The translations under genes and the position numbers were made by a program. The notes beneath the pieces are model-generated. The model saw nothing but the letters and a program-made list of their open reading frames with translations, was not told the DNA's origin and searched no databases. Positions 24,946 through 34,750 of a DNA stretch of 64,000 bases are shown here, piece after piece (position 1 is the first letter of the stretch; the number at the start of each line of letters is the position of its first letter). Origin of the DNA: Astrocystis sublimbata (Eukaryota; Ascomycota; Sordariomycetes; Xylariales; Xylariaceae); NCBI GenBank assembly GCA_022453515.1, contig JAJNNY010000004.1, forward strand, positions 1 to 64,000. The letters are read 5' to 3'.

Positions 24946-27058
24946 ATGTCCTCCGTGCCAGACCCGGCCGTGGTCCCGGCTCCCGAGGCCCAAGATCTTC
25001 AGAAATCACGGGTCGACCCAGACATCTCCGACCCAGGCGCGTCCGAACACGGCCTCGTGACGCCCGTCTTGGCCTCCGCTGACGTCCCCGAGACCACCAA
25101 GTGGGAGGTCTGGTCGTGGTACGCTTATTACATTGGTGCCAACGGCCTGGCTCTGTTCAACTTCGGTCCGACCGCCTTCCAGAATCTCCTGTCACAGGCA
25201 GCCCCCGAAGACACAGGACTTCTCCCCTTCGCCGGCCGTGACCGCAATGTCAACAGCAGTCAGTAAATCTACTTACGAGTCCTTCAATTTTCTCAATTGA
25301 GCCCAGGAATATCTATATATATATATTTAGGGTTTTGCTGTTCGTCATATGCCGCCCGGGTATGCTGCTCGGCTACCCTGTGCATGTGATTGCGGTTCCC
25401 ATTACAAGGTTAAAATTCTAACCTTAAATCTGCCGCAGTCGTCCTTCTCACCAATGGCATCAGTTTCGCCATCCAGGCCGCACTGTTCATCATCATCGGG
25501 GCGTACGCCGACTTCGGCTCCGGCCGCCGTTGGATCCTGGTCTTCTGGTCCATCGTTTCCTTCGGCATCGGTTTCGCCTGGCTCGGCGTGCACGAACCGT
25601 CCAAGTGGGAGGCCGGCGTGGGTTTGTACATTGTGGGCCTCATATGCTGTAAGTAATCATAAGCCCTGGAAATCTTGTTGTCCACCCCTTCTTTCGACAT
25701 CTCTCGGCAATCACGAACTACCTCAGCGTTTCCTACTGGATATATACGGAACCTGGAACTGACTTACTCCACCCCGTCCAAAGACCAGCTCACCCTGACG
25801 TACTGGACGGCCGCATTTCCATCGCTGGCGCGCAATACGCCACACATCAAAGAAGTCGCGCGCGCCTATGCCGATGGCGAGATCAGCCAGGCCGACTATG
25901 ACCGCCAGGATGAGCTCGAGCGCAGTCGGCTCAGCAACACGGCCTTCTGCATCCAGAGTCTCGGCGAGGTCGTCATCTTGGCCATCATCGTTGGCATCCT
26001 TTTCGGCGTGGACGTGAACGCGAGCACCGAGGCCAACAACCGAGGCTTGAGCGTGCTCATCACCTTCGCCACCGCCGTCTGGCTCGTGCTGTCCATCCCA
26101 TGGTTCCTGATCGAGAAGAAGCGGCCCGGTCTGGCGATCCCGCGACACATGAACATCATCAGCGTCGGTTTCTGGCAGTTGAAGGAGGCTCTGACGTATG
26201 TAACCAACGAATTCCATGCACTTCCCCCCTTTTCATTGCAAGTCTCTCTGGGTAGGCATCTATTCCCGGGCATACATATGCTTCTCAAACCACACCGACA
26301 AATGCCCGTGCCCGAACCCGAATCACGAACAATAATGTTCCTTCCCTCCTCTGAAACGCAAGTACTGACATTCAGTCGCTTCAAGTAAGATCTGGCACCT
26401 CAAGCAGAGCCTGATCTACCTCGTCGGCTACTTTCTCCTGGGCGACTCCCTCAACACGACCGTGACTGTCATCGCAACGCTGCAGAACGAGGTGGTTGCG
26501 TACGACACGCTGACCCTGACGTACCTGCTCATCGTCGGCATCGTGTCGCAGGCGGCCGGCATCGCCGTGTACTGGTGGCTGCAGCAGCGGTTCCAATTGG
26601 GCGCCAAGACCATGTTCAACGTCGTCATGGTCGGCATCGTGCTGCTCGACGGCTGGGGCATGATCGGCAACTGGACGGACCGGTTCGGCTTCCACCACGT
26701 CTGGGAGATCTGGCTGTACCAGGCCTTCTACGGCCTCTTCGTCTGCCAGTGGTACTCGTACTCCCAGATCCTCATCTCCTCCGTCACCCCGCGCGGCCAC
26801 GAATTCCTCTTCTTCTCCCTCTTCACCATCGTCGGCAAGACTTCTTCGTTCATCGGCCCCTTCGTCAGCAGCGCCATCATCGACGCCTCTCCCGGCCACA
26901 ACAACAACAGCGCCCCCTTCTACTTCCTCTTCGGCCTGACCCTCGTCAGCGCCGCCGGTCTTTGGCTCTTCCTGGACCTGGACAAGAGCGCGAGAGAACA
27001 GGAGGCCTTCCTGATCCAGCAAAAGGCGAGGACGGCGTTGGCGTCGGATAGCGAATAA
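24946..27058 (+). CDS. atg22: Autophagy-related protein 22-like vacuolar amino-acid effluxer
   Basis: Four exons: 24946-25258, 25439-25648, 25784-26195 and 26386-27058, giving 535 residues. Spliced, the protein reads through IVLLTNGISF, ICYQLTLTYWTAAFPSLARN and EALTKIWHLKQSLIYLVGYF, all Atg22-like. It has about 11-12 hydrophobic membrane segments of the major facilitator fold. Atg22 exports amino acids from the vacuole after autophagic degradation. The introns (180, 135 and 190 bases) are longer than in most neighbours. The second acceptor, CCAAAG at 25783, was chosen because it restores TYWTAAF; an alternative CTCAG upstream also keeps an open frame and would insert about 24 residues. The long intracellular segment with ARAYADGEISQADYD is also typical. 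Transport activity is inferred from family only. Confidence 0.88.
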
Positions 27059-27928: not shown

Positions 27929-30900
27929 TTAAATGCTTCCACCGCGGGCCTGGGCAGCTGGGACATCGTCCCATTTCAGTTTCGTGTGCTTTTCTTGCAG
28001 CTGTCTCTCTAGCTCACCGCCGTCTGGAAGATAGTGAGCAATCGTGAGCGCGTGGCTTATCCAGGCTTTGCTGAGTTCATCCTCATGGAGGCCGAATAGA
28101 TCGACTCCATGATTGAAGGCTGTAATCGTAATCCATTCCAGCTCCATGAAGGGGAACTGCTTCTTGCTCTATATCACATGCTGTTAGCATCTTCATAGAG
28201 GCGTTGCGTTTGCACTGATCAATCAACCTGCCTTTGCCAACTGTTTGACCATCACAGAAATCTCGTCTATCAAATTCAAAGGAATACCGTGTTCCATCGG
28301 TAAAGTGACTTTAAGTAGGCATCGCATATACTTAGCCAGCTTCTCGTTACCAAAATTTTCGAGAGCCCAGATCTGGTTAATGAGATCGCGCATGGTTTGG
28401 TATAGCACTGATACAGTTTTTAGTCATCTCTGTAGGCAACAGGGGTGTGCGGAACATATTACCTTGCGGCGGAACAGATTCGCATCTCAAGATACAATCC
28501 GCCATGGCTTGGTAAGCAGAAAGACTCTGACCCGCTTTAGCCTTGAGAACAATGCTTTTGAGGTCATCCTATGACTTCAAGCAAGTAGCTCCTTCAAACT
28601 CAAAGATCAACAGGGTCGAAAATTTGGTTTGGAGATCTCCTTGTGCGACTTCATTCAACGTATCGAACCTTGAATCAAGTTCTTCTTGGAAGCGTTTCAC
28701 ATGACTCCGCATGTCAAGATAGTCTTGGAGACGTGACTCGGTGTTATCATTGGATCTTGCGAGGGCAAGAAGCACCGTGGCAGCCATGAAATTGCAAAAC
28801 ATGGCGCGTAGCGAGTTATCATTGGCCTTCTGGGCTGGGATATCCGGGGGATAGCTTGGTAAGATAGATAGACAGCACTCCAGCATGGAAATGATATGGC
28901 GTGCATCCCATATCATTGTCTTTTCCAGGCCGAGATTGTAGGCGTTCTTGCAAAACCAGTCCAACTCCTCGACGGTGAAAAGCTTATCGGATTTACAATC
29001 GCGGCGCTCTTTCTGTATCTCGTCGGCAGCTTGACCAGCCGTTAGACTTTGCTGTACAACAGGTCTCACGTATTTGACCTACCAGCTTTGAATATATTGC
29101 AAAGGTCTTCTACCATGCCCTCCTTTTCTCTGTTACTTTCTTTCTCGTCAGTCAACACCGAGACCTCGAGGCGTATCAAGACCCGCAACAATGCTGGAAG
29201 GTGTATCGAGCTCGACAAATGGGACCGACGCTTGTGTACTATGAGCTGCAATGCCTTGATCGTAGTTATCTTGTCTTGAACTTGCTGCGCCTCGAGACAG
29301 CATGCATACAAGCATTCCGAACCAGTAGACGAAGTCTCGCTGATCTGGTTTAGACATCGCAATGCACTGTCCGCATCCTCTTGTTTCAAAGCGACTCTAA
29401 AAGCCAAGTAGGCTGTCATTGGTTCCTTCAGTGTGTCATCGTTCATTGCCTGCAGGATCTCGCCTGCAGTGGACAGGTCATTCAATTGAATGGCGCAAAG
29501 CAATAATTTTCTGAATCACCGTTGGTCCTCGTTCACATACACATGATGCAACCTGTTTGAAATGGGACTGACCTGGCCATTTTACCCAGATTCGACGGGC
29601 CGGACTGTTCGAGAGCTGGATGCAAAGCCAGATTGTACCACTTCGCAGCCGAACAAAACTCTCCCTGGCTGAAGTCGGCGTCCGCCTTCTTCCAAATCAA
29701 CTATCGAATGGTCAGCCTCGAAAAATCGACGTCAACGCCTTGTAGCGACTAACGGTGTGCATTCCCACGGCAGCATTGACAGGTAGAGGCTTCCCCATGC
29801 AAGGTAGAACCTTGTCCAATACCACTTCGAGACCTTGGACGAACTCGGGCGGCCCATCTCGGGTTGCTATATAGGTTCGCAGCATGATAGCTTTGTCAAT
29901 CCACTGTTCCTGTTGACTACCTAATATGTTGGGCAAAAAAAAATCGTCGAGAACCGATATGGCAGCCGGGCGATTTCTTACGTCAAGCTTTCGTATGTGA
30001 TGGATGAGTAGGTTGAAAGATGATTCAGTCATATCTATGCTTCTCATCATACGTCGTATGATATCGGCGTAGGCCTCACTATCGAAAGTCTCATTTGGAG
30101 AGCGTAGTAGAAGTTCGGTCCGAAAGAGCAAGACAATGAGCTTGTCGCCCAATTCGCTTTCAACATAGGCAATGTGGTTCTCGGCACGGCTCATATAATC
30201 GGGACCCCCTATCTCGAGGTACACTTGGATGAGAGTTTGAGAAATCGCTAGTCTTAGTTCGATGGCATCTCTCGAAAGTTGACCCAGTTCCAGTGCGTTA
30301 ATCAGTTCGTAAGCCCTCTCCAGCCACTTGCCGGCCAGGGCGAGGTTCTTCTTCTGTGCCAAGTCTCGCCCAATCTCAAATAGAGCATCGGCGGTTTTTT
30401 CTGCCGACACGGCGTCAATATTGGGCACCAAGCTCTCGAGCTTTCCGTACACGTGATCTGCGACGTCCATGCGGTCTCCTTTCCAAGCCTAAGACGAGTT
30501 AGTCGACGGGTGGAAACTCGTATTGAATGGGCGCTTGCCAGCACGACACGAAGCGTGGAGCATTTGACTTCAAACTGGCTGGATGTAAGGGACCCGTTCC
30601 CAGACGGCGAGCCTTGCGGAGGCTGCAACCGTCCGTTGTATTCGACGGCTTTCTGCAGCGCCCAGAGGCCGGACTCGATCTCCTTGGTGGCTAGGTAGTG
30701 TGAGCAAGGACCTTTTGGGATCCGGTTTCGTGCGTAGCCCAATCTTCCACTTACCAATACAGGTTCGAGTTGTCTTGATAGCGAGTTGCTCGAGGTGGAG
30801 GATGCTCCTCTGGGAATGGTCGTCGGTCTGTCGCGCTAGAACCAGCATAGAAAATGACAGCAACCGCACCAGACAGAAGAATTTTCCTGTCCCAGGTGGC

Positions 30901-32593: not shown

Positions 32594-34750
32594 TCACATC
32601 TTATGTTCATCTCTGCGTATCATGAAGGAGAAACAACAATTGACAGTGGGGTCCTTGGAGAGGTCGTCCGGGTTCTTCAGCGCGCACGCTGTCAGCAGTG
32701 TATCGTGCGCTGGGTCGAAGGCGATGGTGCCAAACTCTTCCCAGTACCGGACAAGCGAGTCTTCCGTCATGATCTCGTGTAGCGATATTAAGCCCTGCCG
32801 TTGTCTCGTCAGCCTGCATCGTCGCACACGATGATCGTGTTCTTCGACTTACGTCCCGTAACCTCTCTACGGGCACGTGGATGAGCTCCGCCATCTCCTT
32901 GTTCCCCCTAAATATCTCCCCCGACCTCCTCCAGCAGCAGGCCGGAACGGCCATCGACGCAAACACACGGTCGTATTCCATGAGCGACTTTTCAAACCAC
33001 ATCTCGACGTACACGAGTTCCATATCTGTGAGCCCCTGCACCTTCTCGCGGAACTTGGGACGGAAGCGATCCAGTTGTCGCAGGATCTTCTGTTTCGACG
33101 CGGGCGCGATATGCCCGTCCATGTAGCTCGAGAGCCGAGCATATCCCTTGATATAGTTGAAAGGCTTGAGAAGCCCAGCGTCGTACTTGGCTCTCAACAC
33201 TCGTTGCATGCGCGCCTCGGGCGTGTCGTTACCGGACGGGTCGGCGGCCTGTAGATAGAATTCCCTCGTCTTGTCTGCCGGGGCGGCGCTCTTGGGTCTC
33301 GCGATGGCGTTGCGATCCGCGTTGGGCGGCAGCATGGACCCTACCTCCATGGCACTCGGCGGTAGGGGGTTGCCCAGAAAGTGAGCCATGTCTGCTTGGC
33401 CGGGCTGGGACTGGTTTCTGTACAGTAAACTCTGCTCATCCGTCAAAGATCCGCTCCCTTCTAGGAGACTCGTGTTGAGAAAGTCATTCAGTAAGTTGAA
33501 CTCGCCGGTGACTTCTTGGGGAAGCATATATTGGGGGTTGTAGTGATGCATGTCATGGAATTGGTTTTGCGCAGTCAACCATGCGTCCGAGAAACCGGCC
33601 ACTGCGAGGTCAGCCTACGATATAGATGGTTTGTAAAGGGGCTCGAGGAGAACGCACATTGGTTCATGTTGTTACCACCAGCCGTGCCGGCCTGCAGGCC
33701 AGAGACCGGGCTGGGTGACACAAGCTGCAGCTGGTTGCTATTGCTGCCTGGGTTGCCTTGGACAAGTGGGCCGAAGGCTGGCTTGGTGCCCTGGGAGCCA
33801 TTCGCATCGAAAGAGGGCGGTACCAGCGCATTGGTACCTCGATCTATCGAGTTTCGCGACAATTCGGACTGGCTGTCTGGCTCGTCACGTGCAGCTCCAG
33901 CTGCAGGAGTAGAGCCCTTGGGCTTCTTTGCATCCGGATCCCTGGGCTCATCATGGCAGAGGTGGCCAATGTTGCGCTTGATGCATCTCGTACATGGTCT
34001 CCCCTATTCGCTCCCTGGTCAATTCGGCACACGCACCTCGGAGCAACAAGACCCCAGCCACTGATGTAACGCAGCGAGGAACTGATCTTACATACGAGAT
34101 CACATGTCATGTGCTATAAAGCATTGAAAGCTGCCGTCAGCGAAAAACAATCCTCGACACATCCAGTCCCTTCCCCGCCCCCCAAAAAGGGCAATGCTAT
34201 TGGGCCCAGTCGGCGCGCCACGCGCATTTCACAGAGACGGACAGGGCGTGAGATCACGAGGCGGGCAAGCGACAGCATTGGGGCGCCTTCGCCAAAGGCG
34301 TAGACAGGCGCAGGCGCGCGCAGACGTGGGCCAATGGACGCGGGGTGATGGACGGCGCTATACAAGGTTGCTGAATGAGAACTTACAGATCGGCGACAGT
34401 ACACGCATGCTGTAGGAACGCGCGACCAAGAATTAGCCCTAGCCCATGCTCATGCGGTGGACATACAGACAGACATTGTACGGACAGGATGCGACGATGG
34501 CGGCGACCGGGGAGGGGTGGGAGCTATCAGAGGGGAGGGGGAGAACGGGAGAACGGGAGAACGGGAAAGGGAGAGGGTCAGGACTGGCATTGTACATCAG
34601 CAGCGTACCGTGATTCACCTTGCGCCTCTTCCTGGGGCTCTTATTGGCATTGTCGGTGGGTGTATTGGCGGCGGTACTGGGGGTGTTGTCTTTGGACTTG
34701 GCATCGCTCTCGGATTTCCTGTCCTTGGCATGCGCGCCATTGCTCTCCAT
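32594..34750 (-). CDS. Zn2Cys6-PAS transcription activator of gluconeogenesis (ERT1/AcuK family)
   Basis: Six exons: 34609-34750, 34387-34409, 34096-34113, 33658-34003, 32853-33601 and 32594-32794, giving 492 residues. The N-terminus ends in SPRKRRKVNHACVYCRRS, followed by HMTCDLGRPCTRCIKRN and IGHLCHD, a complete Zn2Cys6 binuclear cluster with six Cys. The long middle reads AGFSDAWLTAQNQFHDMHHY and EFNLLNDFLNTSLL. The C-terminus carries the PAS-like part (RVFASMAVPACCWRRSGEI, RYWEEFGTIAFDPAHDTLLT) and ends SFMIRRDEHKM. This order is diagnostic of the family, which activates gluconeogenic genes on acetate, ethanol or fatty acids. Exons 2 and 3 are microexons of 23 and 18 bases inside the zinc cluster. 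Introns 1 and 2 are long (199 and 273 bases), and intron 1 holds a GA-rich tandem repeat (34541-34566). I cannot decide between AcuK and AcuM orthology. Confidence 0.9.
34541..34566 (+). repeat. Short tandem GAGAACGG-type repeat in intron 1 of the ERT1-like gene
   Basis: About three copies of an eight-base GAGAACGG unit lie in a purine-rich stretch (pyrimidine-rich on the transcribed strand) within the first intron of the gene. Confidence 0.7.

Follow-up and report, generated by a model that had tools for sequence, protein, structure and literature searches.

A UAG codon apparently shared by SPO22/ZIP4 genes of many Xylariales genera points to stop-correcting mRNA editing

The meiotic gene SPO22/ZIP4 of Astrocystis sublimbata is interrupted by a single in-frame TAG at codon 776 of 949. 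We consider A-to-I correction of the resulting UAG during sexual development to be the best explanation and hold it to be highly probable; we infer that the transcript is edited, at what stage and by which enzyme, and that the gene depends on this. The initial annotation had already read this codon as a candidate site of stop-correcting editing, a reading now supported by a stop shared among relatives, a conserved tail, the lack of a plausible intron, candidate editing machinery, a PUK1-type stop in a kinase gene and the editing of SPO22 in Fusarium.

The mechanism that we envisage starts from an SPO22 mRNA bearing a genome-encoded UAG at codon 776. At the sexual stage Tad2-Tad3, a deaminase of the tRNA type, would act with its cofactor Ame1 to turn the A of this UAG, preceded by U and enclosed in a hairpin loop, into inosine, and ribosomes would read UIG as UGG (Trp). 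Sexual tissue would then produce the full-length 949-residue Spo22/Zip4, and translation of unedited mRNA would stop after 775 residues, leaving out the last 174.

An in-frame TAG in an otherwise intact SPO22/ZIP4 gene

The SPO22/ZIP4 gene occupies positions 31232-27929 on the minus strand of the window, the 64,000-nucleotide stretch of DNA analysed here. Splice sites, Pfam and a database protein defined a model of nine exons, comprising 949 codons and a final stop: exons 1-3 at 31232-31172, 31117-30755 and 30690-30539, exons 4-6 at 30488-29754, 29700-29573 and 29510-29083, and exons 7-9 at 29029-28463, 28407-28232 and 28168-27929. Its assignment to SPO22/ZIP4 follows from a match to the Pfam SPO22 domain in exon 4 (PF08631, E 3.5e-54) and from resemblance over the full length to proteins annotated as SPO22/ZIP4. 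In our model, introns 3 and 8 begin with GC; the GC donor of intron 8 (AAG/GCAGGT) was chosen because the GT donor four bases further on throws the last exon out of frame.

The TAG lies in exon 7 (29029-28463, minus strand) at 28571-28569, with the frame open on either side, and the candidate edited A is at 28570. Around it the frame reads CLKS-stop-DDLKSIVLKAKAGQ, with CLKS-stop-DDLK as the immediate context, and past the TAG no stop intervenes before the donor at 28462 (CGCAAG/GTAATATG). The part of the gene 3′ of the TAG (28568-27929, minus strand) amounts to 173 codons, which are conserved in relatives; they consist of what is left of exon 7 together with exons 8 and 9, the two exons that make up the C-terminus. 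Apart from codon 776, the gene is intact, with neither a stop nor a frameshift, and the TAG stands where the ancestral codon was one for Trp. These results bear out the initial annotation, which had placed the TAG in the minus-strand SPO22 frame at an expected Trp (the residue that most other fungi have at codon 776 in our alignment), had followed the open frame to a donor and through two further exons to the C-terminus, and had set a 949-residue product against one of 775 residues.

The database protein P0001 of A. sublimbata (875 aa), very probably the entry of the window's own genome, was identical to our model at 875/875 aligned residues, with 74 gap residues. Of these, 44 correspond to residues 733-776, around the TAG. 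The annotated intron over the TAG is spurious, and P0001 is otherwise the same protein as our model.

The stop at codon 776 is shared among Xylariales

Two protein searches, in which scoring was limited to the candidates with most words in common, yielded 179 SPO22 homologues. Of these, 136 were aligned together with the protein encoded in the window; the remaining 43, chiefly from Colletotrichum but including some from Leotiomycetes and Dothideomycetes, were aligned separately. Assignment to orders by species name divided the 136 into 72 Xylariales and 64 others; a row named Lasiodiplodia mahajangana, which sits among Nemania in the tree described below, was counted as Xylariales. Codon 776 in the relatives was deduced from protein models rather than DNA, and a model that ends at residue 775 does not display the kind of stop that follows.

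Among the 72 Xylariales models, 15 ended exactly at residue 775, 20 skipped exactly codons 764-776, one (P0001) skipped 733-776, and 20 skipped the site with other ends. Trp was present at codon 776 in 15 models (14 plain, one in a gapped context), and the partial model of X. flabelliformis, out of frame at the site, aligned a Tyr (1/72). Models resuming exactly at residue 777 numbered 21 of the 72. Such a model requires NAG at codon 776, since a splice acceptor needs AG, and TGG is thereby excluded. Among the 64 models of other orders, 51 had Trp, six had another residue and seven did not cover the site; none ended at 775 or resumed at 777. The 43 separately aligned homologues had Tyr (14), Thr (14), Trp (12), His (2) or Val (1), the Colletotrichum models having Tyr, Thr or His. 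Together with the Trp-reading Xylariales models, the Colletotrichum residues show that Trp is not strictly needed at this codon.

The models thus indicate that a stop at codon 776 is common to many Xylariales genera and is not specific to one strain. Comparison of this codon between SPO22 orthologues had been proposed in the initial annotation, and it revealed stop-type models, that is, those ending at 775 or skipping exactly 764-776, in 35 other database rows from many genera. SPO22 annotation is faulty on a wide scale, as 56 of the 72 retrieved Xylariales models end at or skip codon 776. False introns and early ends of this kind, which we found in the automatic models at the SPO22 stop, have been described at edited stops (PMC4817773, PMC11169179).

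Two other recurrent gaps were observed in the models. A large skip of residues ~343-518, ending at 519, is common to 15 Xylaria, Nemania and Ustulina models; it is unexplained and is perhaps a copied annotation error. It follows that annotation errors can spread between models, but the deduction of NAG at codon 776 still holds because a splice acceptor is required there. Residues 623-811, nearly the whole of exon 7, are missing from eight models (Whalleya, FL2044, FL0641, Hypoxylon FL1857 and FL0890, and the Sordariales Apodospora, Rhypophila decipiens and Cladorrhinum). In the three Sordariales models this gap may conceal further stops.

Distribution of the stop on the tree and conservation of the tail

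A quick maximum-likelihood tree was built on query columns 1-755, which exclude the site. Its 82 rows comprised the window sequence, 67 rows from the 72 Xylariales and 14 from the 64 models of other orders; P0001, P0002, P0006, P0011 and P0051 had been dropped as own-genome, mis-framed or same-species models. All 36 stop-type rows (the window, the 15 ending at 775 and the 20 with the 13-codon skip) fell within one clade of 61 rows, together with 17 rows skipping the site with other ends and eight with Trp. In the sister clade of Apiospora, Neoarthrinium, Truncatella and Seiridium, Trp was present in 7/7 rows. The label stop or Trp changes at least seven times on the tree, and both a single gain with several returns to Trp and a few separate gains would fit this distribution.

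The sequence past the stop was compared with that before it in models possessing a tail, which leaves aside those ending at 775. In 21 stop-type rows (the window and 20 others; 210 pairs), mean identity was 0.729 at residues 600-762 and 0.775 at 777-938. The corresponding values for 14 Trp rows (91 pairs) were 0.501 and 0.541. Divergence in the tail relative to that in the body had a median ratio of 0.79 for stop-type rows, 0.91 for Trp rows and 0.90 between the two sets. Poronia provided a contrary case, its identity to the window being 0.56 after the stop and 0.60 before it. By these figures, the SPO22 sequence past the stop is not decaying.

These data bear on a plain null allele, in which RIP or a nonsense mutation would have converted TGG to TAG and broken SPO22 in this strain. 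The change is from G to A and is of the RIP type (RIP changes C to T where A follows, here on the opposite strand). Such a loss is, however, at odds with the stop-type codon in 35 other rows across many genera, with the conserved tail among stop-type species and with the absence of a second stop or frameshift elsewhere in SPO22. Conservation makes the null allele very unlikely and upholds the earlier preference for editing over it.

No plausible intron removes the TAG

Alternatively, a genuine short intron that keeps the frame (an exitron) could end with the TAG and be removed by splicing, in relatives if not in Astrocystis. Exactly such a 39-nt intron, extending from Val764 to codon 776, is present in 20/72 Xylariales models. 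The models of these relatives use the GT of codon 764 as the donor, but this codon, Val in most relatives, is ATC (Ile; 28607-28605, minus strand) in the window and contains no GT, so that the donor is absent. Within 199 nt of the TAG, the only other GT donors in frame are 81 and 132 nt upstream, and their use would remove 27 or 44 residues, conserved ones among them; in-frame GC dinucleotides occur at 78, 192 and 198 nt upstream. No CTRAY branch-site sequence was found in the 200 nt upstream of the TAG, whereas five of the eight introns of the model have one 9 to 15 nt from the acceptor. The length of 39 nt is also below that of any of the eight SPO22 introns (50 to 64 nt). Furthermore, the residues that would be skipped (FEFEGATCLKSW) are kept in Trp-reading species and in other classes, and 15 other Xylariales models stop at codon 776 with no splice. 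In the window, we found no combination of usable donor, branch site and acceptor that would yield a working protein. By sequence, then, an intron over the TAG, which the initial annotation had also mentioned, is implausible, and we consider an exitron to be very improbable, if slightly less so than the null allele.

A predicted hairpin at the TAG

A-to-I editing is known to prefer U at -1 and hairpin loops (PMC4817773). At the SPO22 TAG, U precedes the A and the A lies in a predicted hairpin loop, which fits this preference. Folding prediction gave the hairpin described in the initial annotation, a five-pair stem (GUCAU/AUGAC) closing the triloop AGG at 28575-28563 on the minus strand, with the A of the TAG as the first loop base. 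The sampled probability that this A is in a hairpin loop was 1.0 for flanks of ±15, 20 and 30 nt, and with ±40 to 100 nt it ranged from 0.94 to 0.99.

As a chance control, we used all 1568 TAGs in the window, on both strands and in any frame, the SPO22 TAG included. The A was within a hairpin loop of the minimum free energy (MFE) structure in 435 of them, and a perfect 5-bp stem with an A-first triloop was found in two. Among the 1568 TAGs, 150 reached a loop probability of at least 0.95, and 83 of these folded with an MFE no higher than that of the SPO22 site. When the segment was recoded at random with synonymous codons, 78 of 1000 versions reached the same probability, 29 of them with such an MFE. 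Taken alone, the predicted hairpin is only mildly unusual and weak evidence; the weight of the case for editing lies in conservation. We also considered the 13-mer GTCATAGGATGAC as a special motif and rejected it, its three sites in the genome, including that in SPO22, being about what we estimate its length to allow.

A parallel stop in a PUK1/STK-21-type kinase gene

PUK1 of Fusarium and its N. crassa counterpart STK-21, with UAG UAG or UAG UGG, are the archetype of the A-to-I-corrected stop. The PUK1 stops are in kinase subdomain IX, where N. crassa NCU03242 has an edited UAG UGG (PMC4817773); NCU03242/stk-21 is classed as AGC/NDR (PMC3591445). The Astrocystis genome likewise encodes, in a gene other than SPO22, a kinase of this type with an in-frame TAG TGG at the DWWSLG motif (minus strand; locus L039, G000:C148:110500-115500, and L034). 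It reads CD-TAG-TGG-SLGVILYE in subdomain IX, and the loop probability of the A in its TAG is 0.93 with flanks of ±30 nt and falls to 0.69 with ±60 nt. Its putative orthology to PUK1/STK-21 rests on the site, the NDR type and search matches rather than on comparison with the Fusarium or Neurospora proteins. Among 12 TAG-bearing kinase matches that we read, TAG TGG in subdomain IX occurred in one (L034). Genome-wide counts of TAG within kinase matches were set aside, as alignments running through introns take in the TAG of 3′ splice sites.

We examined the 120 best of 1727 matches to this kinase. The best 70, Xylariales and allies by name, included three with both Trp residues, 21 resuming exactly at the second Trp and 46 with other skips; the first Trp was thus missing from 67/70, a stop-type gap and a systematic annotation error. 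Of the next 50, 45 had both Trp residues, four resumed at the second and one ended just before the site. Rows with both residues included Leotiomycetes, a class in which editing has not been found (PMC11087585), but also Sordariomycetes such as Pyricularia, Diaporthe and Cytospora; the kinase stop is therefore not universal. The kinase stop, too, seems to be carried across the order Xylariales. RID (PF00145), taken as a second control, had no internal stop in 7/7 matched stretches and was uninformative.

UAG readthrough during translation could give some full-length protein without editing and would likewise preserve the downstream frame and the shared UAG. However, the SPO22 context is UAG G, unlike a known fungal readthrough motif, UGA CUA. 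Readthrough also leaves unexplained why the replaced codon is one for an ancestral Trp, and why a parallel TAG occupies the first Trp position in the PUK1-type kinase, where editing has been proven in other species. We give readthrough very little credence.

Candidate editing machinery

For A-to-I editing, the genome contains candidate machinery, judged from its own sequences. Deaminase motifs are present on contigs C88 and C108, which we take to be Tad2-like and Tad3-like, respectively. Six DUF726 matches were taken as four genes. The one on C108, an Ame1-like candidate, carries Met-Val at the place of Ser-Gln, Arg-Asn and Leu-Asp in the other three. Two features speak against this candidate: by our count, the pair is one residue off the published spacing, and the nucleophile position is Gly. 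Met-Val at 500-501 is reported to be essential for F. graminearum Ame1 and to be the Sordariomycete state; the nucleophile position of Ame1 is given as Ser, and its catalytic triad as dispensable for editing (PMC11087585).

Relation to SPO22 of Fusarium and other known systems

Editing of SPO22 as such is already published for Fusarium, on which the initial annotation was silent: the F. graminearum orthologue FGRRES_01563 is reported to be edited from UAG to UGG in perithecia (Liu et al. 2016, PMC4817773). This PUK1-like gene has in common with the Astrocystis case that SPO22 carries an in-frame UAG, dodged by a false annotated intron, and that sexual development is involved. The two differ in that the Fusarium editing was seen in RNA, whereas the Astrocystis site is known from the genome and gene models. 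The Fusarium stop is probably at another codon, as all five Fusarium models covering codon 776 have Trp there. Residue 663, Trp in 112/112 covering models of the 136 aligned, is omitted from 6/6 Fusarium models and missing from 11/23 Hypocreales-type models, those six included, and the Ilyonectria model resumes exactly at 664. These gaps suggest a second premature-stop site in SPO22, and we infer a separate stop at Trp663 in part of Hypocreales. With Trp776 read and Trp663 omitted in Fusarium, the Xylariales site looks independent. The Trp663 stretch is also omitted in Biscogniauxia FL1348 (P0044) and B. marginata (P0046).

CHE1 of F. graminearum offers another parallel: its stop is shared by related Fusarium species and is accompanied by the same annotation errors, and the A is predicted to lie in a hairpin loop (Zou et al. 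2024, PMC11169179). Its editing takes place in hyphae and its stop is described within close Fusarium species, whereas the Xylariales SPO22 stop would span many genera.

SPO22 may be a hot spot of editing-dependent stops, gained independently in Xylariales (codon 776) and Hypocreales (probably 663) and kept through long divergence, with some lineages having or regaining Trp. Gating of synapsis on editing would then be convergent, selected regulation and not neutral accumulation, a proposal to which we give slightly less than an even chance. Individual editing sites are reported to turn over fast (PMC5381528), which makes a long-lived SPO22 site of interest. One site over many genera, with Trp-reading relatives, would allow adaptive and neutral accounts of restorative editing to be tested against each other by comparing species, and this in a gene at the core of meiosis. 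PMC10512317 names N. crassa, S. macrospora and F. graminearum as editing fungi; our searches of the open-licence literature found no report of mRNA editing in Xylariales, and the present results point to stop-correcting editing in this order.

Genes adjoining SPO22

In many database models, SPO22 is fused with a PF24990 (ERT1/acuK-type) domain, as if a same-strand gene adjoined it upstream in relatives. An ORF at 32607-33614 on the minus strand of the window had no Pfam match. The converging neighbour on the plus strand (26369-27058) matched Pfam ATG22 (vacuole effluxer) with E 1.6e-65.
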